Of a DNA stretch of 52,116 bases, positions 2,159-30,366 are shown one piece after another. Position numbers and translations under genes: made by a program. Origin of the DNA: Nodosilinea foveolarum (GTDB taxonomy: Bacteria > Cyanobacteriota > Cyanobacteriia > Phormidesmidales > Phormidesmidaceae); the NCBI GenBank assembly GCA_003242035.1, contig QBMC01000010.1, positions 1 through 52,116 of the forward strand. The letters run 5' to 3'. The notes under the pieces are model-generated. The model was not told where the DNA came from, ran no database searches, and was given only the letters and a program-made list of their open reading frames with translations. The first letter of the stretch is position 1; each line of letters starts with the position of its first letter.

Positions 2159-4381
2159 ATGAGCTTAAAGCGTCGGCATTTTTTACTCTTTTTAGGTGCG
2201 GCTACTGGCACCTCAGCGTTAGGGGCTTTAGGATGCACATCCGCATCTGGAATAGCAAGGACTGCCCCCGGAGCAGCAGGCAGCGCTGGCAAAACAGTGG
2301 CAATGCGGCCCGAACCTTTTAAGCCCTTAAAGAGTCCAATCCCTTACGACGCAATTTCAATCAGCGCCGATCAGCAGCCGCTAGAGTACAGCCAATACGC
2401 ATTGCAAGACGACATCGTTCTCCCCGATGGCTTTACCTACGACGTGATCGCATCCTGGGGAGATCCGGTTGGCGACTCTCGCTTTGGCTACAACAACGAC
2501 TATCTTTCATTCGTGCCCACTGGCCCAGATGAGGGCTACCTCACGATTAATTTTGAATACATCAGCAGCGAGACGTGGCAGCAAACCTATCAGGCCGTCA
2601 CCGGTAAGACTTTGCCATTTGAGGAAGTGGTCATGGCGCTAAAAGCGATAGAAGGCAAGGCCGTGAATGCCTTCGAGCTGCCAGAGGGCGATCCGTTGAA
2701 GGCGCAGATTCAGCAAATCTCGAAAGAGGCGCTGGTCGATCAGGGGTTGGGGGTCATTTCAGTGCGTCGAGAGGCCGATGGGAAATGGGTGCGGGTTGAG
2801 GGGAAGAGCGATCGCCGCATATCAGGCGCATCTGGACTAGACGACGGCAAATATCTAAAATCTACCGGCCCCGCCACTGAGATCTTCAACAAAACTAAGG
2901 TAAAAGGCTACACCGACGGATTAGGCGACAAAATTATTGGCACCTTTGGCAACTGCGCAGGCGGCACAACGCCCTGGGGAACCGCCTTGAGTGCAGAAGA
3001 AAACTTTCAGGATCAGGTGCCTGAAGGCGTCTTGAGCGATGGGTCTTCGCTAAATCCGGGTGAAGTGACCTTCGACTCAGAATTCGGTGGGCAGGGCAAT
3101 GTGTTTGGCTTGGCGGGTAACAAATACGGCTGGATTGTAGAAATCGACCCGAGCGATCCGACTGATAGTGGGACAAAGCATACCTGGATGGGTCGCTATC
3201 GGCATGAGGCGGTTGGGGTGCGAGCAGAAGCAGGGAAGAAACTGGCGTTTTATTCGGGGTGCGATCGCCGAGGCGGACATGTCTACAAATTTATCAGTAC
3301 CCAAACCGTCAGCGATCCCAAATCTAAAGCCAACTCCCAGCTACTTTCTGACGGGATGCTCTACGCCGCCAAATTCAACGGCGACGGCACCGGAGCCTGG
3401 ATACCGCTAGCTCCCAACACCGCCGTCAATCCAACCTTGCCAAGTCAGGTCATGGGCGGCATGGTGCCCTTACCTCAACGGCCCAATGGCAGCTTTGAAA
3501 AAGTGACCGACGACGCAGCCGCCCAGCAGCTCGCAGCAAAATTTGCCACCTTAGGCGATTTGTACGACGGCACGCCAGCAGAGAAACAGGGAGCCATCTT
3601 GGTAGACGCCCACTTCGCCGCAAACGCCGCTGGTGCAACCGCCACCGCTCGCCCAGAAGATACCGAAATTGCCTCAGACGGCACTCTCTTTATTGCCTTT
3701 ACCTCCGGCGTATCCGGCGGCGACGGTGGCCCCGACAAAGCCGTCTTTGTTGGCCCTAACGGTGAAGCAGAATACGAAGCAGGCTGGGTAATGAAAGTGA
3801 GCGAAGCCGAAAACGACCCGGCAGCGCTGACCTTTGCCTGGGACATGTTTGCCACAGGCGGCGAACCGGCAGACGGCGGCATGGGCTTTGCCAATCCCGA
3901 TAACTTAGCCTTCGATTCTCAGGGCGATCTGTGGGTGGTTACCGATATGTCTACCAGCACCCACAATATCGCCGTCCCCGCTCAGCGCAAAGACCCATCA
4001 GGAGAACCCATTGCCGGAAAAGGACTGCTCGGTCTGTATGGCAACAACTCTTTATGGAAAATTGCGATGAGTGGCGAAGCGGCAGGAGAGGCGAAGATGT
4101 TTGCCTATGGCCCGATGGAATGCGAGCTAACTGGCCCCGTCTTTACAGAAGATAGCTCCACTTTGTTTGTCGCCGCACAGCACCCAGGAGAAACCAACGG
4201 CATACGCACGGCGATGGCGACCGAAACCCGCGAGTTTGAGATGAAAACAACGGATGGCAAAACCTTTTTGCAAAAGCGCGAGGTGCCGGTCGGGTCTAAC
4301 TGGCCAGGAAAAGTGGAGAATTCACCGCCAAAGCCTTCTGTCGTCGCGATTCGCCGCATCGAACAGACGACGATTGTGTAG
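2159..4381 (+). CDS. phoX: PhoX-family (DUF839) phosphatase, Tat-exported
   Basis: The 740-residue protein has a twin-arginine signal (LKRRHFLLF) and a hydrophobic run ending at LGALGC, so it is exported folded and possibly lipid-anchored; the lipobox is weak. The rest is a DUF839/PhoX beta-propeller. Visible family motifs are NCAGGTTPWGT with nearby EENF (about residues 262–281), GCDRRGGHVYKF (about 369–380), RPEDTEIASDG and NPDNLAFD. PhoX enzymes are Fe/Ca-dependent phosphomonoesterases that release phosphate from organic esters outside the cytoplasm. The segment that is often TCEEN in relatives reads SAEEN here; I cannot say from sequence whether that position binds metal. Length is normal for the family. 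The upstream Pho-box-like site suggests phosphate control. A phytase-like or other DUF839 esterase role is possible. Confidence 0.85.
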   Translation: MSLKRRHFLLFLGAATGTSALGALGCTSASGIARTAPGAAGSAGKTVAMRPEPFKPLKSPIPYDAISISADQQPLEYSQYALQDDIVLPDGFTYDVIASWGDPVGDSRFGYNNDYLSFVPTGPDEGYLTINFEYISSETWQQTYQAVTGKTLPFEEVVMALKAIEGKAVNAFELPEGDPLKAQIQQISKEALVDQGLGVISVRREADGKWVRVEGKSDRRISGASGLDDGKYLKSTGPATEIFNKTKVKGYTDGLGDKIIGTFGNCAGGTTPWGTALSAEENFQDQVPEGVLSDGSSLNPGEVTFDSEFGGQGNVFGLAGNKYGWIVEIDPSDPTDSGTKHTWMGRYRHEAVGVRAEAGKKLAFYSGCDRRGGHVYKFISTQTVSDPKSKANSQLLSDGMLYAAKFNGDGTGAWIPLAPNTAVNPTLPSQVMGGMVPLPQRPNGSFEKVTDDAAAQQLAAKFATLGDLYDGTPAEKQGAILVDAHFAANAAGATATARPEDTEIASDGTLFIAFTSGVSGGDGGPDKAVFVGPNGEAEYEAGWVMKVSEAENDPAALTFAWDMFATGGEPADGGMGFANPDNLAFDSQGDLWVVTDMSTSTHNIAVPAQRKDPSGEPIAGKGLLGLYGNNSLWKIAMSGEAAGEAKMFAYGPMECELTGPVFTEDSSTLFVAAQHPGETNGIRTAMATETREFEMKTTDGKTFLQKREVPVGSNWPGKVENSPPKPSVVAIRRIEQTTIV

Positions 4382-24811: not shown

Positions 24812-26521
24812 ATGTCAGATCCCAACACTGGTCGCAAAATATCTAATCGGTACGATCTGATAGAACCTATCGGGCAGGGATCTATGGGCAAGGTTTATCT
24901 AGCCGCCGACTCGCTATTGGGCGACGTACCGGTTGCGGTAAAATTTCTCTCGCAAACCATGCTCAACGAGAACATGCGCACCCGATTCTTTCGAGAAGCC
25001 ATGACCTGCGCTCAGCTCGGGCAAAAAAGTATGCACGTCGTCCGCGTTACAGACTACGGACTCAACGAAGACAATGTTCCTTTCTACGTGATGGAATATT
25101 TAAAAGGAGATAGCGTAGGCCGATTGATCAGGAAACAGCCGCTGCCCGTTCCTCGGTTTCTCGGGATCGTCCGCCAAATTCTATTAGGGCTACGAACCGC
25201 CCACAACGGCATTCTGATAAAAGGTGAGGCCGTACCGATTATTCATCGCGATATTAAACCTAGCAATATTATTGTTACCTCCGATCCTTTTATGGGGGAG
25301 CTGGTAAAGATTTTGGACTTTGGAATTGCTAAGCTTTTACAGGCAGGTAGCGAGCAAACCAGCACATTCATGGGGACATTGGCCTATGCATCGCCCGAGC
25401 AAATGGAAGGCCGCGAGCTAGACAACCGATCAGACATCTATAGTCTGGGCGTGATGATGTACCAGATGCTTTCGGGTAGCTTGCCAGTAAAGCCCGATAA
25501 CAATACATTTGGCGGCTGGTACAAGGTACATAGACTCTTACAGCCCAAGTCGCTCTCTGAGTTTGAGTTAGAGCTGAAGGTGCCCAAGGCGCTAGAAAAT
25601 ATTGTGATGGCTTGTCTGGCTAAGCAGCGGGAGAACAGACCCGACAGTATCCAGCAGGTAATAGATGCGATCGCCCCTCTAGCAGATCGCTTTGGCTCCG
25701 GCTTACAAATCTCTCAGCGCATCAACACCACGCTCTCTAAGCTACCGGTTGTTAAAGAAATACAGCCAAAGAAAGCACTGAAGCTGGCACCTGAAAAAAA
25801 GGAAAGCTTTCAAGAAGACAGTTCAGAGCATTACAGTTCAGGGCAGTACAGCTCAAAACAGTACAGACAGAAACAATATAGAGAAGAACTCAAAGACGAA
25901 AGCCGAGAGGCTGCTCGAAGCGCTGTACAAGTCCTAGAGCCACCCGCTATAAATAGCTTTTATCTAGAGCAGAAGTGGCCAGCCGAAATGCCAGTTGCCC
26001 AAATTGTCTTTCCACGGTTGCTAGAAAAAGGGTCAGAGCTGCTGCCGACACTGTGGGCCATGATGCCTAAAGCTGAAATAGAAATGCGAACGGGCAACAC
26101 GCGCTACAACAACTTTATGTGCACAATGGCCCCGCATCCCATGGTGCTGTGGCTGACCGTGCTTTACAACAAAGTACAGGGACCGCGTTGGCTACCTTGT
26201 TATCTAGATTTTAAAGCGGAAGAAGCGCAGCAAATTCTAGCGCGACTTGCAGACGCTCGAAAATATCACCTGATGTTTTTTGAAAAAGAGGATAGCAATC
26301 GCTGCCAACATGTTCAGCCGATTAATGTTGCGGCGAGCCAGCGCAAATTATTTCAAGATTGGACAATCGCAGCTCGCACCTTCCCAACTGGCAACCCTCA
26401 AGACAGCAAGGACCTGCTGAAGCGGGAACTAGAAAATAACCTCAAGCCTAAAATTCTAATGAACTTCGAGTCGATGCACTCCGATGCTAGCCCAGGCATG
26501 GACTCTTCCTTAGGTTTTTGA
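24812..26521 (+). CDS. Serine/threonine protein kinase with unknown C-terminal domain
   Basis: Residues 14–275 are a complete Hanks-type kinase: G21QGSMG loop, K44 in VAVKFL, E62 in helix C, H145RDIKPSN, D169FG and the GTLAYASPEQ activation segment, so it should be active. It has no transmembrane segment and is cytoplasmic. A low-complexity linker (about 305–370) contains four copies of a five-residue repeat (HYSSG, QYSSK, QYRQK, QYREE). The last 190 residues form a folded domain (with WPAEMPVAQIVFPRLLEKG and WLPCYLDFKAEEAQ) that I do not recognise and that could sense a signal or bind a substrate. The broken PP2C gene and a USP gene lie convergent to it, which suggests a shared signalling role. 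Confidence 0.9.
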   Translation: MSDPNTGRKISNRYDLIEPIGQGSMGKVYLAADSLLGDVPVAVKFLSQTMLNENMRTRFFREAMTCAQLGQKSMHVVRVTDYGLNEDNVPFYVMEYLKGDSVGRLIRKQPLPVPRFLGIVRQILLGLRTAHNGILIKGEAVPIIHRDIKPSNIIVTSDPFMGELVKILDFGIAKLLQAGSEQTSTFMGTLAYASPEQMEGRELDNRSDIYSLGVMMYQMLSGSLPVKPDNNTFGGWYKVHRLLQPKSLSEFELELKVPKALENIVMACLAKQRENRPDSIQQVIDAIAPLADRFGSGLQISQRINTTLSKLPVVKEIQPKKALKLAPEKKESFQEDSSEHYSSGQYSSKQYRQKQYREELKDESREAARSAVQVLEPPAINSFYLEQKWPAEMPVAQIVFPRLLEKGSELLPTLWAMMPKAEIEMRTGNTRYNNFMCTMAPHPMVLWLTVLYNKVQGPRWLPCYLDFKAEEAQQILARLADARKYHLMFFEKEDSNRCQHVQPINVAASQRKLFQDWTIAARTFPTGNPQDSKDLLKRELENNLKPKILMNFESMHSDASPGMDSSLGF

Positions 26522-26554: not shown

Positions 26555-27424
26555 CTAGCCGTGAGGAAAGTGAATAATGGGATGCCAGCAGGCTCTTAGC
26601 ATAGAGGTTGTAAAACTGGGCACCGTTAGCTTTAGCAAGTTGCCACTTTTACCAGAGCAGACGGCGATCGCGCTAATATCGTGCATCTCACCCGACTTCA
26701 TTATTTCTTCTAGCGGCGAACCCATGCGCACTTCCGTCTCAATTTCAGTGCCCATGCCCGATAGCTCCGCTTTCACCTCATTGAGATTAGCCTGAGCTGC
26801 TTTTTCCGGATTGTTTCTAGACAATCGGCCGCCCCCATCTACTACCCAGCAGAGCAAGCAGGTCTCTAATGCCCCTTCTGGGTCGGACTGAATCTTAGCC
26901 TTGATGCTGCTCGCCAACATCTTAGCGCTGTCGCTGCCGTCGTAAGGCAACAGCAAATACTCAAACAGATGCTGACAGCGCTGCGATAGCTCGGTCTCGC
27001 GATAAGTAGACACTAGCTGAGGTCGCATAATTAAAATGGGCACATCCACCTTATCGGCAATCTCTAAGGTCGTGCTGCCAAATAGCTTTTCGTTTAGCGC
27101 CGAGCGCGTCGGCATCCCCGAGAACATAATGTCTGGCTTGTACTTCTTAACGGCCCTGACAATATTTTCCGACGCCCGACCCGAAGTAATCTCAATTTCA
27201 ACGGTTGTTCCGGCGGGCACATTGGACTCGGCGATCGCCAAAACTTTCCGAGCCTGACTCATTTTCTCCTCATCCGCACAGGGAATTTCTCTAGAAGTCA
27301 TCAGCGGCACGTTGTGGAAAAATACAATGTGCTCCATGCCGCCCTTGGCCAAATCGGGCACAAAATTGGCTAGGCGCTGAAGACTGTCCGTAAAGTCAGT
27401 ACAAATGAGCACACGCTTAAACAT
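26555..27424 (-). CDS. Tandem universal stress protein (UspA family)
   Basis: Two USP domains in one polypeptide of 289 residues. The first (about 1–145) starts with MFKRVLICTDFTDS and ends VDVPILIMRPQ; the second (about 160–289) starts LLLPYDGSDSAKM and ends at MLRACWHPIIHF. The usual ATP-binding GxxG(9)G(S/T) is replaced by GMPTRSALNEKLFGST in the first domain and by CSGKSGNLLKLTVPS in the second, so the second is the weaker ATP binder. USPs respond to stress, often through AMP/ATP. I start at the ATG at 27424 because it begins the first strand; a longer reading adds ten residues. The gene is convergent with the kinase gene. Confidence 0.85.
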   Translation of the reverse strand: MFKRVLICTDFTDSLQRLANFVPDLAKGGMEHIVFFHNVPLMTSREIPCADEEKMSQARKVLAIAESNVPAGTTVEIEITSGRASENIVRAVKKYKPDIMFSGMPTRSALNEKLFGSTTLEIADKVDVPILIMRPQLVSTYRETELSQRCQHLFEYLLLPYDGSDSAKMLASSIKAKIQSDPEGALETCLLCWVVDGGGRLSRNNPEKAAQANLNEVKAELSGMGTEIETEVRMGSPLEEIMKSGEMHDISAIAVCSGKSGNLLKLTVPSFTTSMLRACWHPIIHFPHG

Positions 27425-27507
27425 AAAATTGCCCCAATAAAACGCCGCGAACAAAACCGCTATACAACAGTATCATCCCTCAAAATGATAAACAGTAGGG
27501 AGGAAAA

Positions 27508-28245
27508 CTATCGCGGTATCGCCAGGGCGAGCGCAGTTATGTTGTCCCGCCCGCCCTGAGCCTTGGCAGCTTCTATCAGCGCCGCCACAGCTTCCTCGCA
27601 GGTGCCAGCAGACTGCATATGCCCAATAATCGCATCGCTCTACAGTTCTTCTGTCAAACCATCACTACAAAGCAGTAGGCGATCGCCCGACTCAATATCC
27701 AGTTGCTGCGTCTCCACCAGGCGCAAATCACCACGGCCCACACATTTAGAAAGCATATGCCGCCACAGATGCGTCTGGCGCTGCTCTGGCAATAGGTTGC
27801 CTTTGGTAATAGCTAGGTTTATCCAGGTATGGTCTTGCGTCACCTGAATAAAGCCGCTTTCTCGCAGAATATACAGCCGCGAATCACCCACATGGGCGCA
27901 CCAAAACTGACCGCCTCGGTACATTAGTAGGATTACTGTGGTGCCCATATCAGCCATTTCTGGGCGCTGCTGCTCGTGTAAAACAGCATCATTAGCAGCT
28001 AACACGGCGGCTTCTAGTAGTTCTGAAGACAGGCGATCGCTCACCCAATGCTCGTATAAATAGCCCTCAATCACCTCAGTGGTCAGCCGACTCGCCTCCT
28101 GACCGCCCGCATGTCCACCCATTCCATCTGCCACAATAAACAAATTGCCAGCAGGCGACAGATAATAGCTGTCTTGGTTGGTCGCCCTTTGTAGCCCCGT
28201 ATCGCTAAGGCCCGCAAACGCCCAGTCGGGTAAAGAAGCACTCAT
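27508..28245 (-). pseudogene. PP2C-type protein phosphatase interrupted by in-frame TAG
   Basis: The frame starts at 28245 and encodes a PPM/PP2C phosphatase: GLQRATNQDSYYL, VADGMGGHAGGQEAS, GTTVILLM, HVGDSRLYIL and LLLCSDGLTEEL. A TAG at 27640–27642 ends it after 201 residues. The same frame continues for 43 more codons to a second stop at 27508–27510, and encodes the missing family C terminus, including GGRDNITALAL with the last metal-binding Asp. The intact product would be about 245 residues, normal for the family. So the gene is disabled by one base, or the TAG is read through, or the base is a sequencing error. It follows the ubiB gene by 18 bp and probably shares its transcript. Confidence 0.88.
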
Positions 28246-28263: not shown

Positions 28264-30366
28264 CTAAGGCATTCTGTCCGCTTTCGCAATGCGCAACAGC
28301 AGCCGGACGAAGATAATGCCCGTAATCGTCGCGATAACGCTCATAATCACAGCGGGCGCTACCAGCTCAAAAATGGTGAATATCGTTGCCGAGAGCGTAA
28401 ACGTACCCACCAGCAGCGCGTAGCTATTAGCCAAAGACAAGTCGCTGTTTCGGCGCATGATGCGATCGCTCTCAATCGAACGCACCCGAACTCTAATATC
28501 TCCTCTATCTAACCGATCAAGCGTATCCTCAATCCGCTGAGGCAAACTCAAAGCCGAGGAGCCAACCTTGGCCGCCTGCCGACTAATCTCACCCAAAATA
28601 CCGTTGGTCTCACTTGGACTACCGTTCGTCATAAGCTCAGTTGCGTAAGGTTTAGCTGCTTCCATAAAATTGAAATCGGGATCGAGTCCCTTGCCGACGC
28701 CTTCTAGCGTAGAAAAGGCTCGCATCACAAAGGTGAACGTAGCCGGGAATCGAAAAGGCTGATCGTAAGCCACCGCATAAAGGTCATCGCTAATCGCCGC
28801 GACTGACTGCTCCTCAAACGGCTTATCCATCATATTGTCAAGAATATACTGAATCGAACGGCGCACAGGCCCCATATCGTCGATTTCAGCTAGCGCTCCT
28901 AGCTCCACTAAAGACGTCATCACCTTTCCCGCATTCCGCTGCGAAATACCGACAAAGGTATCCATCAGACGAGCGCGCGTCACCGCTGGAATTTGGCCCA
29001 TCATGCCAAAGTCGTAAAAGATCAACGTTCCATCCGGGTCTACGGCAATATTGCCAGGATGCGGGTCGGCATGGAAAAACCCATCGGTCAGCAGTTGCCG
29101 CAAATAAGCCTCAGCGCCAAGCCGAGCCAGTCGCTTGCGGTCTAACCCAGCAGACTCAATCGCCTCGTAATGGCTAATTTTAATACCGGGCATGTACTCC
29201 ATGGTCAGCACACGCGGCGAAGTGTAGCGCCAGTAAATTCGAGGCACCCTTACCCAATCTACGCCGCGAAAATTACGCCTGAACTTGTCGCAATTTCGGC
29301 CTTCGTGCAAAAAGTCAATTTCTAACCAGAGCAGCCGACAGCACTCTGCATAGACACCCATCCAGTCGCGGCCTTTGCCCCATTCTTTATGATTTTGAAA
29401 ATATTGAGCAATCCCTTTCAAAATTGAGAGGTCAATCTCAAATAGCCTGCTTAGGCTAGGCCGCTGAACTTTAACGACAATCTCTTCACCCGAGTGTAGC
29501 TGAGCGCAGTGAACCTGACCCAAGCTAGCAGCGGCAATAGGCACGGTATCAAAGCGCTGATACAGTTCCGATAGCGGGCGGCCAAAGTCGGTTTCTATGG
29601 TGGTCTTTACCTGCTCGTAGCTAAAAGCAGGCACCCGATCTTGCAGCTTAGACAGTTCTGCAACATATTCAATCGGAAAGAGGTCGGCTCTAGTAGAAAA
29701 CAATTGACCAATCTTGATGAATGTTGGCCCCAGACTTAGACAGGTTTCGCGTAGCCAAACCGCAATTTCCTGACGGCGTATTTTTTGCTTCTCTGGTGTG
29801 ATTGGGCCGCCATAGGTCCAGGCTTTGTTGTATAGCCAACGCTTAGCCAGTAGCTTAAGGACAAAAGACCAAATATCAATAAAGCGTTGGGGTCTAGAAT
29901 AGCTGCCTTTATTCCAGCGATAGTCGCCATCGCGGTACGAGCTGCCACTGTAAGGAACAGGCGTATCCGTTACCAAGGCGCTGCTTTGAGTCGTATTCTT
30001 TTGAATCGGCTCGTCTTTGATCAGTTGGTTCGCCTCAACGCGAGCCGCAGGCATAGTAGGAGCAAGCTCTACATCATCAGAATCCCTACGAACAGTCGCA
30101 CCGTTAGAACTAGCAATCTCTTCTAAGGATGAATGATCGGAGGACTCCCGCTGATGAGAGGTGCTGTTCTGAAGAGGGACAGAAGAGGCTGTAGATTTAC
30201 CGTTCGAGTTGATATTAGCACTGCCGCCGCCAGCGTCGTTGGCGTCAGCTTTGGTGGAGCTGCGTCTGTGCGCCGCGTCACTCGCAGGAGGCACAGGCAA
30301 CGCTGACGAATCTGCTGGCGTTGCGGGCTGAGAAAATGACTCACTTTTTGGGGGCACGGCAGACAC
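28264..30366 (-). CDS. ABC1/UbiB-type atypical kinase, long N terminus
   Basis: A 700-residue ABC1/ADCK/UbiB protein. The first 150 residues are Ser/Thr/Pro/Asn-rich and disordered. The kinase-like domain follows: KIGQLFSTRADLFP (the KxGQ motif, about 218–231), ASLGQVHCAQL (the family's Ala-rich loop), VVKVQRPSL (Lys), FFHADPHPGNIAVD and FYDFGMMGQIP (DFG). Two membrane helices lie at the end (about 650–695, LLVGTFTLSATIFTIFELV and PAVIMSVIATITGIIFV). UbiB proteins support quinone synthesis or lipid transport; in cyanobacteria plastoquinone and thylakoid roles are expected. The start is GTG. It is directly upstream of the broken PP2C gene. Confidence 0.9.
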   Translation of the reverse strand: MSAVPPKSESFSQPATPADSSALPVPPASDAAHRRSSTKADANDAGGGSANINSNGKSTASSVPLQNSTSHQRESSDHSSLEEIASSNGATVRRDSDDVELAPTMPAARVEANQLIKDEPIQKNTTQSSALVTDTPVPYSGSSYRDGDYRWNKGSYSRPQRFIDIWSFVLKLLAKRWLYNKAWTYGGPITPEKQKIRRQEIAVWLRETCLSLGPTFIKIGQLFSTRADLFPIEYVAELSKLQDRVPAFSYEQVKTTIETDFGRPLSELYQRFDTVPIAAASLGQVHCAQLHSGEEIVVKVQRPSLSRLFEIDLSILKGIAQYFQNHKEWGKGRDWMGVYAECCRLLWLEIDFLHEGRNCDKFRRNFRGVDWVRVPRIYWRYTSPRVLTMEYMPGIKISHYEAIESAGLDRKRLARLGAEAYLRQLLTDGFFHADPHPGNIAVDPDGTLIFYDFGMMGQIPAVTRARLMDTFVGISQRNAGKVMTSLVELGALAEIDDMGPVRRSIQYILDNMMDKPFEEQSVAAISDDLYAVAYDQPFRFPATFTFVMRAFSTLEGVGKGLDPDFNFMEAAKPYATELMTNGSPSETNGILGEISRQAAKVGSSALSLPQRIEDTLDRLDRGDIRVRVRSIESDRIMRRNSDLSLANSYALLVGTFTLSATIFTIFELVAPAVIMSVIATITGIIFVRLLLRIAKADRMP

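Follow-up and report, generated by a model that had tools for sequence, protein, structure and literature searches.

PP2C-type phosphatases require all three of their metals, together with the aspartates that hold them, in order to be active (PMC3375153). In Synechocystis PCC 6803, the phosphatase of PII is such a protein, PphA (sll1771), and its gene lies directly downstream of spkI (sll1770), which encodes an ABC1-type kinase (PMC11863333). Deletion of pphA in Synechocystis leaves PII constitutively phosphorylated (PMC6603209). The serine at position 49 of PII is conserved more widely than the modification itself, being found also in cyanobacteria without PII phosphorylation (PMC4285133). 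The gene described here lies in a stretch of 52,116 nucleotides from Nodosilinea foveolarum, referred to as the window, and its closest solved sequence is tPphA of Thermosynechococcus elongatus (PDB 2j82, 5iti; E 8e-70, residues 10-242). On alignment with tPphA, the metal-binding aspartates of the window gene are D25, D40, D121, D195 and D234. Every metal-ligand position of tPphA is thereby matched, the ligands of that protein being D18, D34, D119, D193 and D231, in the same order.

Like Synechocystis pphA, the window gene encodes a PP2C protein of the same size class and immediately follows a gene for an ABC1-type kinase (Table 1). It differs in that its frame is cut at codon 202. The 201-residue open reading frame in front of the stop, searched by itself, matches the PP2C_2 profile (PF13672, 1.6e-17) and the Stp1/IreP PP2C profile NF033484 (1.7e-50, aligned as far as profile position 190 of 232), which upholds the assignment to PP2C made in the initial annotation; the 171.7 bits reached on NF033484 belong to this truncated form and fall below the equivalog cut-off of 230 bits. 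The gene is called pphA-like here because its ABC1-kinase neighbour stands in the same order as in the spkI-pphA pair, an order of kinase followed by phosphatase that recurs in the five congeners having the gene, in G013 (a different genus, with a near-complete genome) and in the majority of the remaining cyanobacterial genomes searched. The initial annotation had also suggested that, if the TAG is real, the strain has lost the phosphatase that probably opposes the nearby Ser/Thr kinase, which is of the Hanks type. That suggestion is weak and finds no specific support: the kinase conserved right beside the gene is the ABC1 kinase, and PII is the substrate for which Synechocystis PphA has been characterised. 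Judging from the family, PII is the presumed substrate of the window phosphatase as well. The genome encodes a PII protein with the segment RYRGSEYTVEF, Ser49 included; since Ser49 is kept even where PII is unphosphorylated, its presence is no test of phosphatase function. Three further genes with PP2C domains are found in the same genome.

Table 1. Positions of the pphA-like gene, its parts and neighbours in the window, and of related features in other genomes or contigs.
Feature	Position	Strand	Remarks
pphA-like PP2C phosphatase gene with one internal TAG	27508..28245	minus	245 codons plus terminal TAG
Truncated ORF as open, 201-aa product	27640..28245	minus	keeps metal Asp D25, D40, D121, D195
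In-frame TAG, codon 202	27640..27642	minus	Ser/Ala in congeners, Ser/Pro/Thr in others; non-conserved residue
Post-stop tail, 43 codons	27511..27639	minus	two helices, last core beta strand, GGRDN; conserved like the rest
GGRDN, codons 231-235	27541..27555	minus	D234 is a metal ligand, equivalent of tPphA D231
Own terminator of the PP2C gene, TAG	27508..27510	minus	next in-frame stop also TAG (codon 262)
ABC1/UbiB-type kinase gene, SpkI-like partner, intact	28264..30366	minus	directly upstream of the PP2C gene, 18 bp gap
Universal-stress-family (Usp) protein gene, intact, conserved neighbour	26555..27454	minus	downstream; served as control gene
Hanks-type Ser/Thr kinase (STK) gene, intact	24812..26521	plus	conserved neighbourhood; convergent with the Usp gene
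PP2C ortholog of G013, independent TAG at codon 49	L036 3851-4561	minus	
Putative decayed PP2C remnant of G002	L192 4593-5150		between intact Usp and ABC1 genes
tRNA genes with insertions, contig C126	L085 2070-2164, 3233-3327, about 3500-3570	minus	

The reading frame of the PP2C gene runs on the minus strand, a point left out of the initial annotation. It starts with an ATG at 28245 and is open up to the TAG, with DGLTEEL as the last residues translated before it, after which 43 more codons are open. D25, D40, D121 and D195 precede the stop, and D234 of GGRDN (codon 234, 27546-27544) is the only metal aspartate behind it. The orthologs of the five congeners, 64-68% identical, and of more than 50 other cyanobacteria align straight across codon 202, in keeping with the annotated picture of a single in-frame TAG with homologous frame open on either side. 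The relatives were compared in two sets, the first of 58 and the second of all 65 genomes returned for the order; within the order the gene is present in 60 of the 65 genomes and uninterrupted in 58 of those 60. The matches listed in a wider search of contigs were mostly distant PP2Cs. In the five congeners, codon 202 specifies Ser (TCG, TCA, TCT) or Ala (GCT, GCC); elsewhere Ser predominates, and Pro, Thr or a gap occurs in isolated genomes. Because the residue varies in this way among relatives, it is not critical in itself. A change from CAG had been put forward as the origin of the TAG and is not borne out, as no ortholog checked carries Gln at this codon and the congeners have TCN or GCN; by the comparison of codons, the stop is reached in one step from TCG. 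The same TAG in a relative, which the annotation had named as a sign of a regulated short form, was looked for as well, and codon 202 is not a stop in any other genome among the 58 relatives or in the 65-genome set. On this ground the idea of a conserved, regulated short form was rejected.

Interruption or loss of the gene is nonetheless not confined to the window. The ortholog of G013, which has a genome of three contigs, carries a TAG at codon 49, thus at a different codon, where all the other orthologs have Gln, and shows no other lesion. In one congener (G002) the STK, Usp, ABC1 and DUF6825 genes and the genes next to them keep their order, and a segment of about 540 bp occupies the site of the PP2C gene; at the expected gene start, 19 bp past the ABC1 stop, this segment holds a weak match, MKRFLDDFPEGFANLVEVGF*KAT (E 0.2-0.8), and looks like the remnant of a decayed PP2C gene. 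No copy of the PP2C gene was found in G083, which is 99% complete, or in the incomplete genomes G023, G029 and G085. Taken together, the remnant in G002, the absence from G083 and the independent TAG in G013 show that the gene is dispensable in this group. A stronger reading of the two TAGs, the one remnant and the one absence is that pphA is under relaxed or reversed selection in this cyanobacterial family and is repeatedly inactivated, in which case the control of PII phosphorylation would be undergoing dismantling in parallel lineages; this is a tentative proposal and rather unlikely as things stand. The idea of a nonsense hot spot in pphA was found too weak, since 2 interrupted copies in 60 are not clearly above the rate of the control neighbours. 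Among these, the Usp gene has no stop inside the gene (62 genomes; one copy, in G005, looks frameshifted) and the ABC1 gene none inside its conserved part, the control stops flagged being situated shortly ahead of the Usp start codon or in the N-terminal region of the ABC1 protein, which is variable. The apparent frameshift in the Usp-family gene of G005, a congener, is at L196 about 633-636, near the end of a contig.

The part of the window gene behind the stop is as well conserved as the part before it. Mean identity to the congeners is 0.67 for the body and 0.64 for the tail, much as intact congeners score among themselves, and most differences in the tail fall at third positions, as they do between intact pairs. 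Since the tail is conserved as the body is and no second lesion is present, the TAG would be either recent relative to the split from the nearest compared relatives, or an error, or read through; the nearest relatives compared share about 68% protein identity, which bounds the dating. The main rival to a pseudogene is an assembly error, a single wrong base in an assembly of 299 contigs that would leave the gene intact in the organism. A fully preserved tail with no second lesion is the picture that such an error would also produce, one wrong base would suffice for it, and the assembly is a fragmented draft. Codon usage was scanned over 452 kb of this genome, with a sensitivity of 39% at the strict setting and 78% at the permissive one, and the TAG at codon 202 ranks first, at the strict setting, for coding-like sequence on either side of a single stop, which marks the pattern as more than chance. 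Against an error, no other convincing interruption was found in the 452 kb, the remaining strict and permissive candidates looking like natural gene ends or shadow frames as judged by eye, which indicates that such errors are infrequent here; in addition, natural loss of the gene is shown by the independent cases of G002, G083 and G013. Because there is no general excess of interrupted genes and relatives have lost the gene independently, a real lesion is favoured and an error appears unlikely, if deserving of more weight than any other rival. The gene is thus most probably a genuine young pseudogene, a PP2C gene of the pphA type in which one nonsense substitution, at codon 202, has recently abolished function. 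It resembles ordinary bacterial nonsense pseudogenes in having one in-frame stop, an otherwise intact sequence and relatives from which the gene is absent, and is distinguished from them solely in that the G013 ortholog carries an independent TAG of its own.

Under this reading as a young pseudogene, a single nonsense substitution would have turned codon 202 into TAG, and translation would end after DGLTEEL to give a product of 201 residues that lacks the last fifth of the protein. In an AlphaFold2 model with Gln substituted for the stop (pLDDT 91), the missing tail comprises helices at 203-212 and 216-229 and a strand at 236-242. Deprived of both helices, of the final strand of the beta sandwich and of the metal aspartate D234, the short product is expected to be unfolded or without catalytic activity. 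The alignment of D234 with D231 of tPphA confirms that the metal-binding Asp of GGRDN is lost past the TAG, an equivalent of D231 being impossible to produce from the window gene as written, and the inactivity claimed for the short product is, on structural grounds, the likeliest outcome. The truncated ORF does retain the bulk of the PP2C domain and, of the five metal aspartates, all except D234, and could be imagined to function without catalysis, for example as a binding or regulatory protein. Folding is unlikely without the core strand and the two helices, however, and the same truncation occurs in no other genome, so that a functional short form is highly improbable. Equally far-fetched is a phosphatase in two pieces, in which termination at the TAG would be followed by a restart at the ATG of codon 210 (27618-27616) and the resulting 201-aa and 36-aa chains would assemble. 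The in-frame ATG 21 nt past the TAG and the conserved tail are compatible with such a restart, but no good ribosome-binding site is visible ahead of that ATG, the second piece would contribute little beyond roughly one helix and the final strand, and the arrangement is seen in no relative.

Read-through, given as a second option in the initial annotation, would have the TAG decoded at some frequency and the full-length phosphatase made at a low level. It would account for a tail as well conserved as the body, and the RNA behind the stop folds slightly better than its shuffles (z = -1.9), a weak and unremarkable signal. In this genome, however, TAG is a normal terminator and the commonest one, ending 67 of 151 long ORFs in the 452 kb, and a changed genetic code was rejected for this reason. 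The gene's own terminator is itself a TAG, followed by another in frame, and the lack of a stop at codon 202 in any relative means that no recoding signal is conserved. General suppression is disfavoured because it would extend not only the pphA-like protein but many others past TAG. A covariance search recovered 60 tRNA genes from the genome (G000), and no CUA anticodon was found among its tRNAs by ARAGORN and reading by eye, with the tRNA array on contig C126 included. When CUA anticodon loops were sought with a loose pattern, only chance-level matches and normal tRNAs came up. An amber suppressor within the C126 array was considered and rejected, the candidate at 1754-1826 being a tRNA-Arg(UCU) and no other tRNA there having CUA. 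Read-through is accordingly very improbable, and the notion that the TAG in pphA serves as a tolerated leaky switch has no positive support.

If the preferred reading of a recent pseudogene holds, PII, provided that it is phosphorylated in this organism, would stay phosphorylated for longer unless another PP2C acts on it. By analogy with the Synechocystis deletion mutant, constitutive phosphorylation of PII would be predicted if PII is phosphorylated here in the first place and none of the three other PP2C proteins substitutes. A genuine lesion would make the strain a natural pphA mutant that still has a PII with Ser49, and so a useful subject for studying the importance of PII phosphorylation beyond Synechocystis and Synechococcus; otherwise the case would be the ordinary loss of a known gene.

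The tRNA array on C126 has features of its own. About 26 tRNA genes lie within 3 kb on the minus strand of this 7.1 kb contig (L085 1495-4535), 21 of them called by ARAGORN and five, those for Pro, Tyr, Gln, Gly and His, recognised by eye; the contig also carries a TnpB-like ORF and an HNH-type ORF. It is similar to the trn operon that Anabaena PCC 7120 carries on a plasmid (PMC10272220). Upstream of it, on the minus strand at L085 4668-4639, TTGACA and TAGTAT are separated by 18 bp, and the -10 box is overlapped by TGTAGTAT, which is identical to the reported TrcR-site sequence of the Anabaena trn operon (PMC10272220) and suggests that the array is under the same repressor control. Some of the tRNA genes contain insertions of about 20 nt or longer in the variable or T-arm region, for example CTTCGGGAAGTCTGCGCCTAC, and because of these insertions they may be degenerate or need processing.
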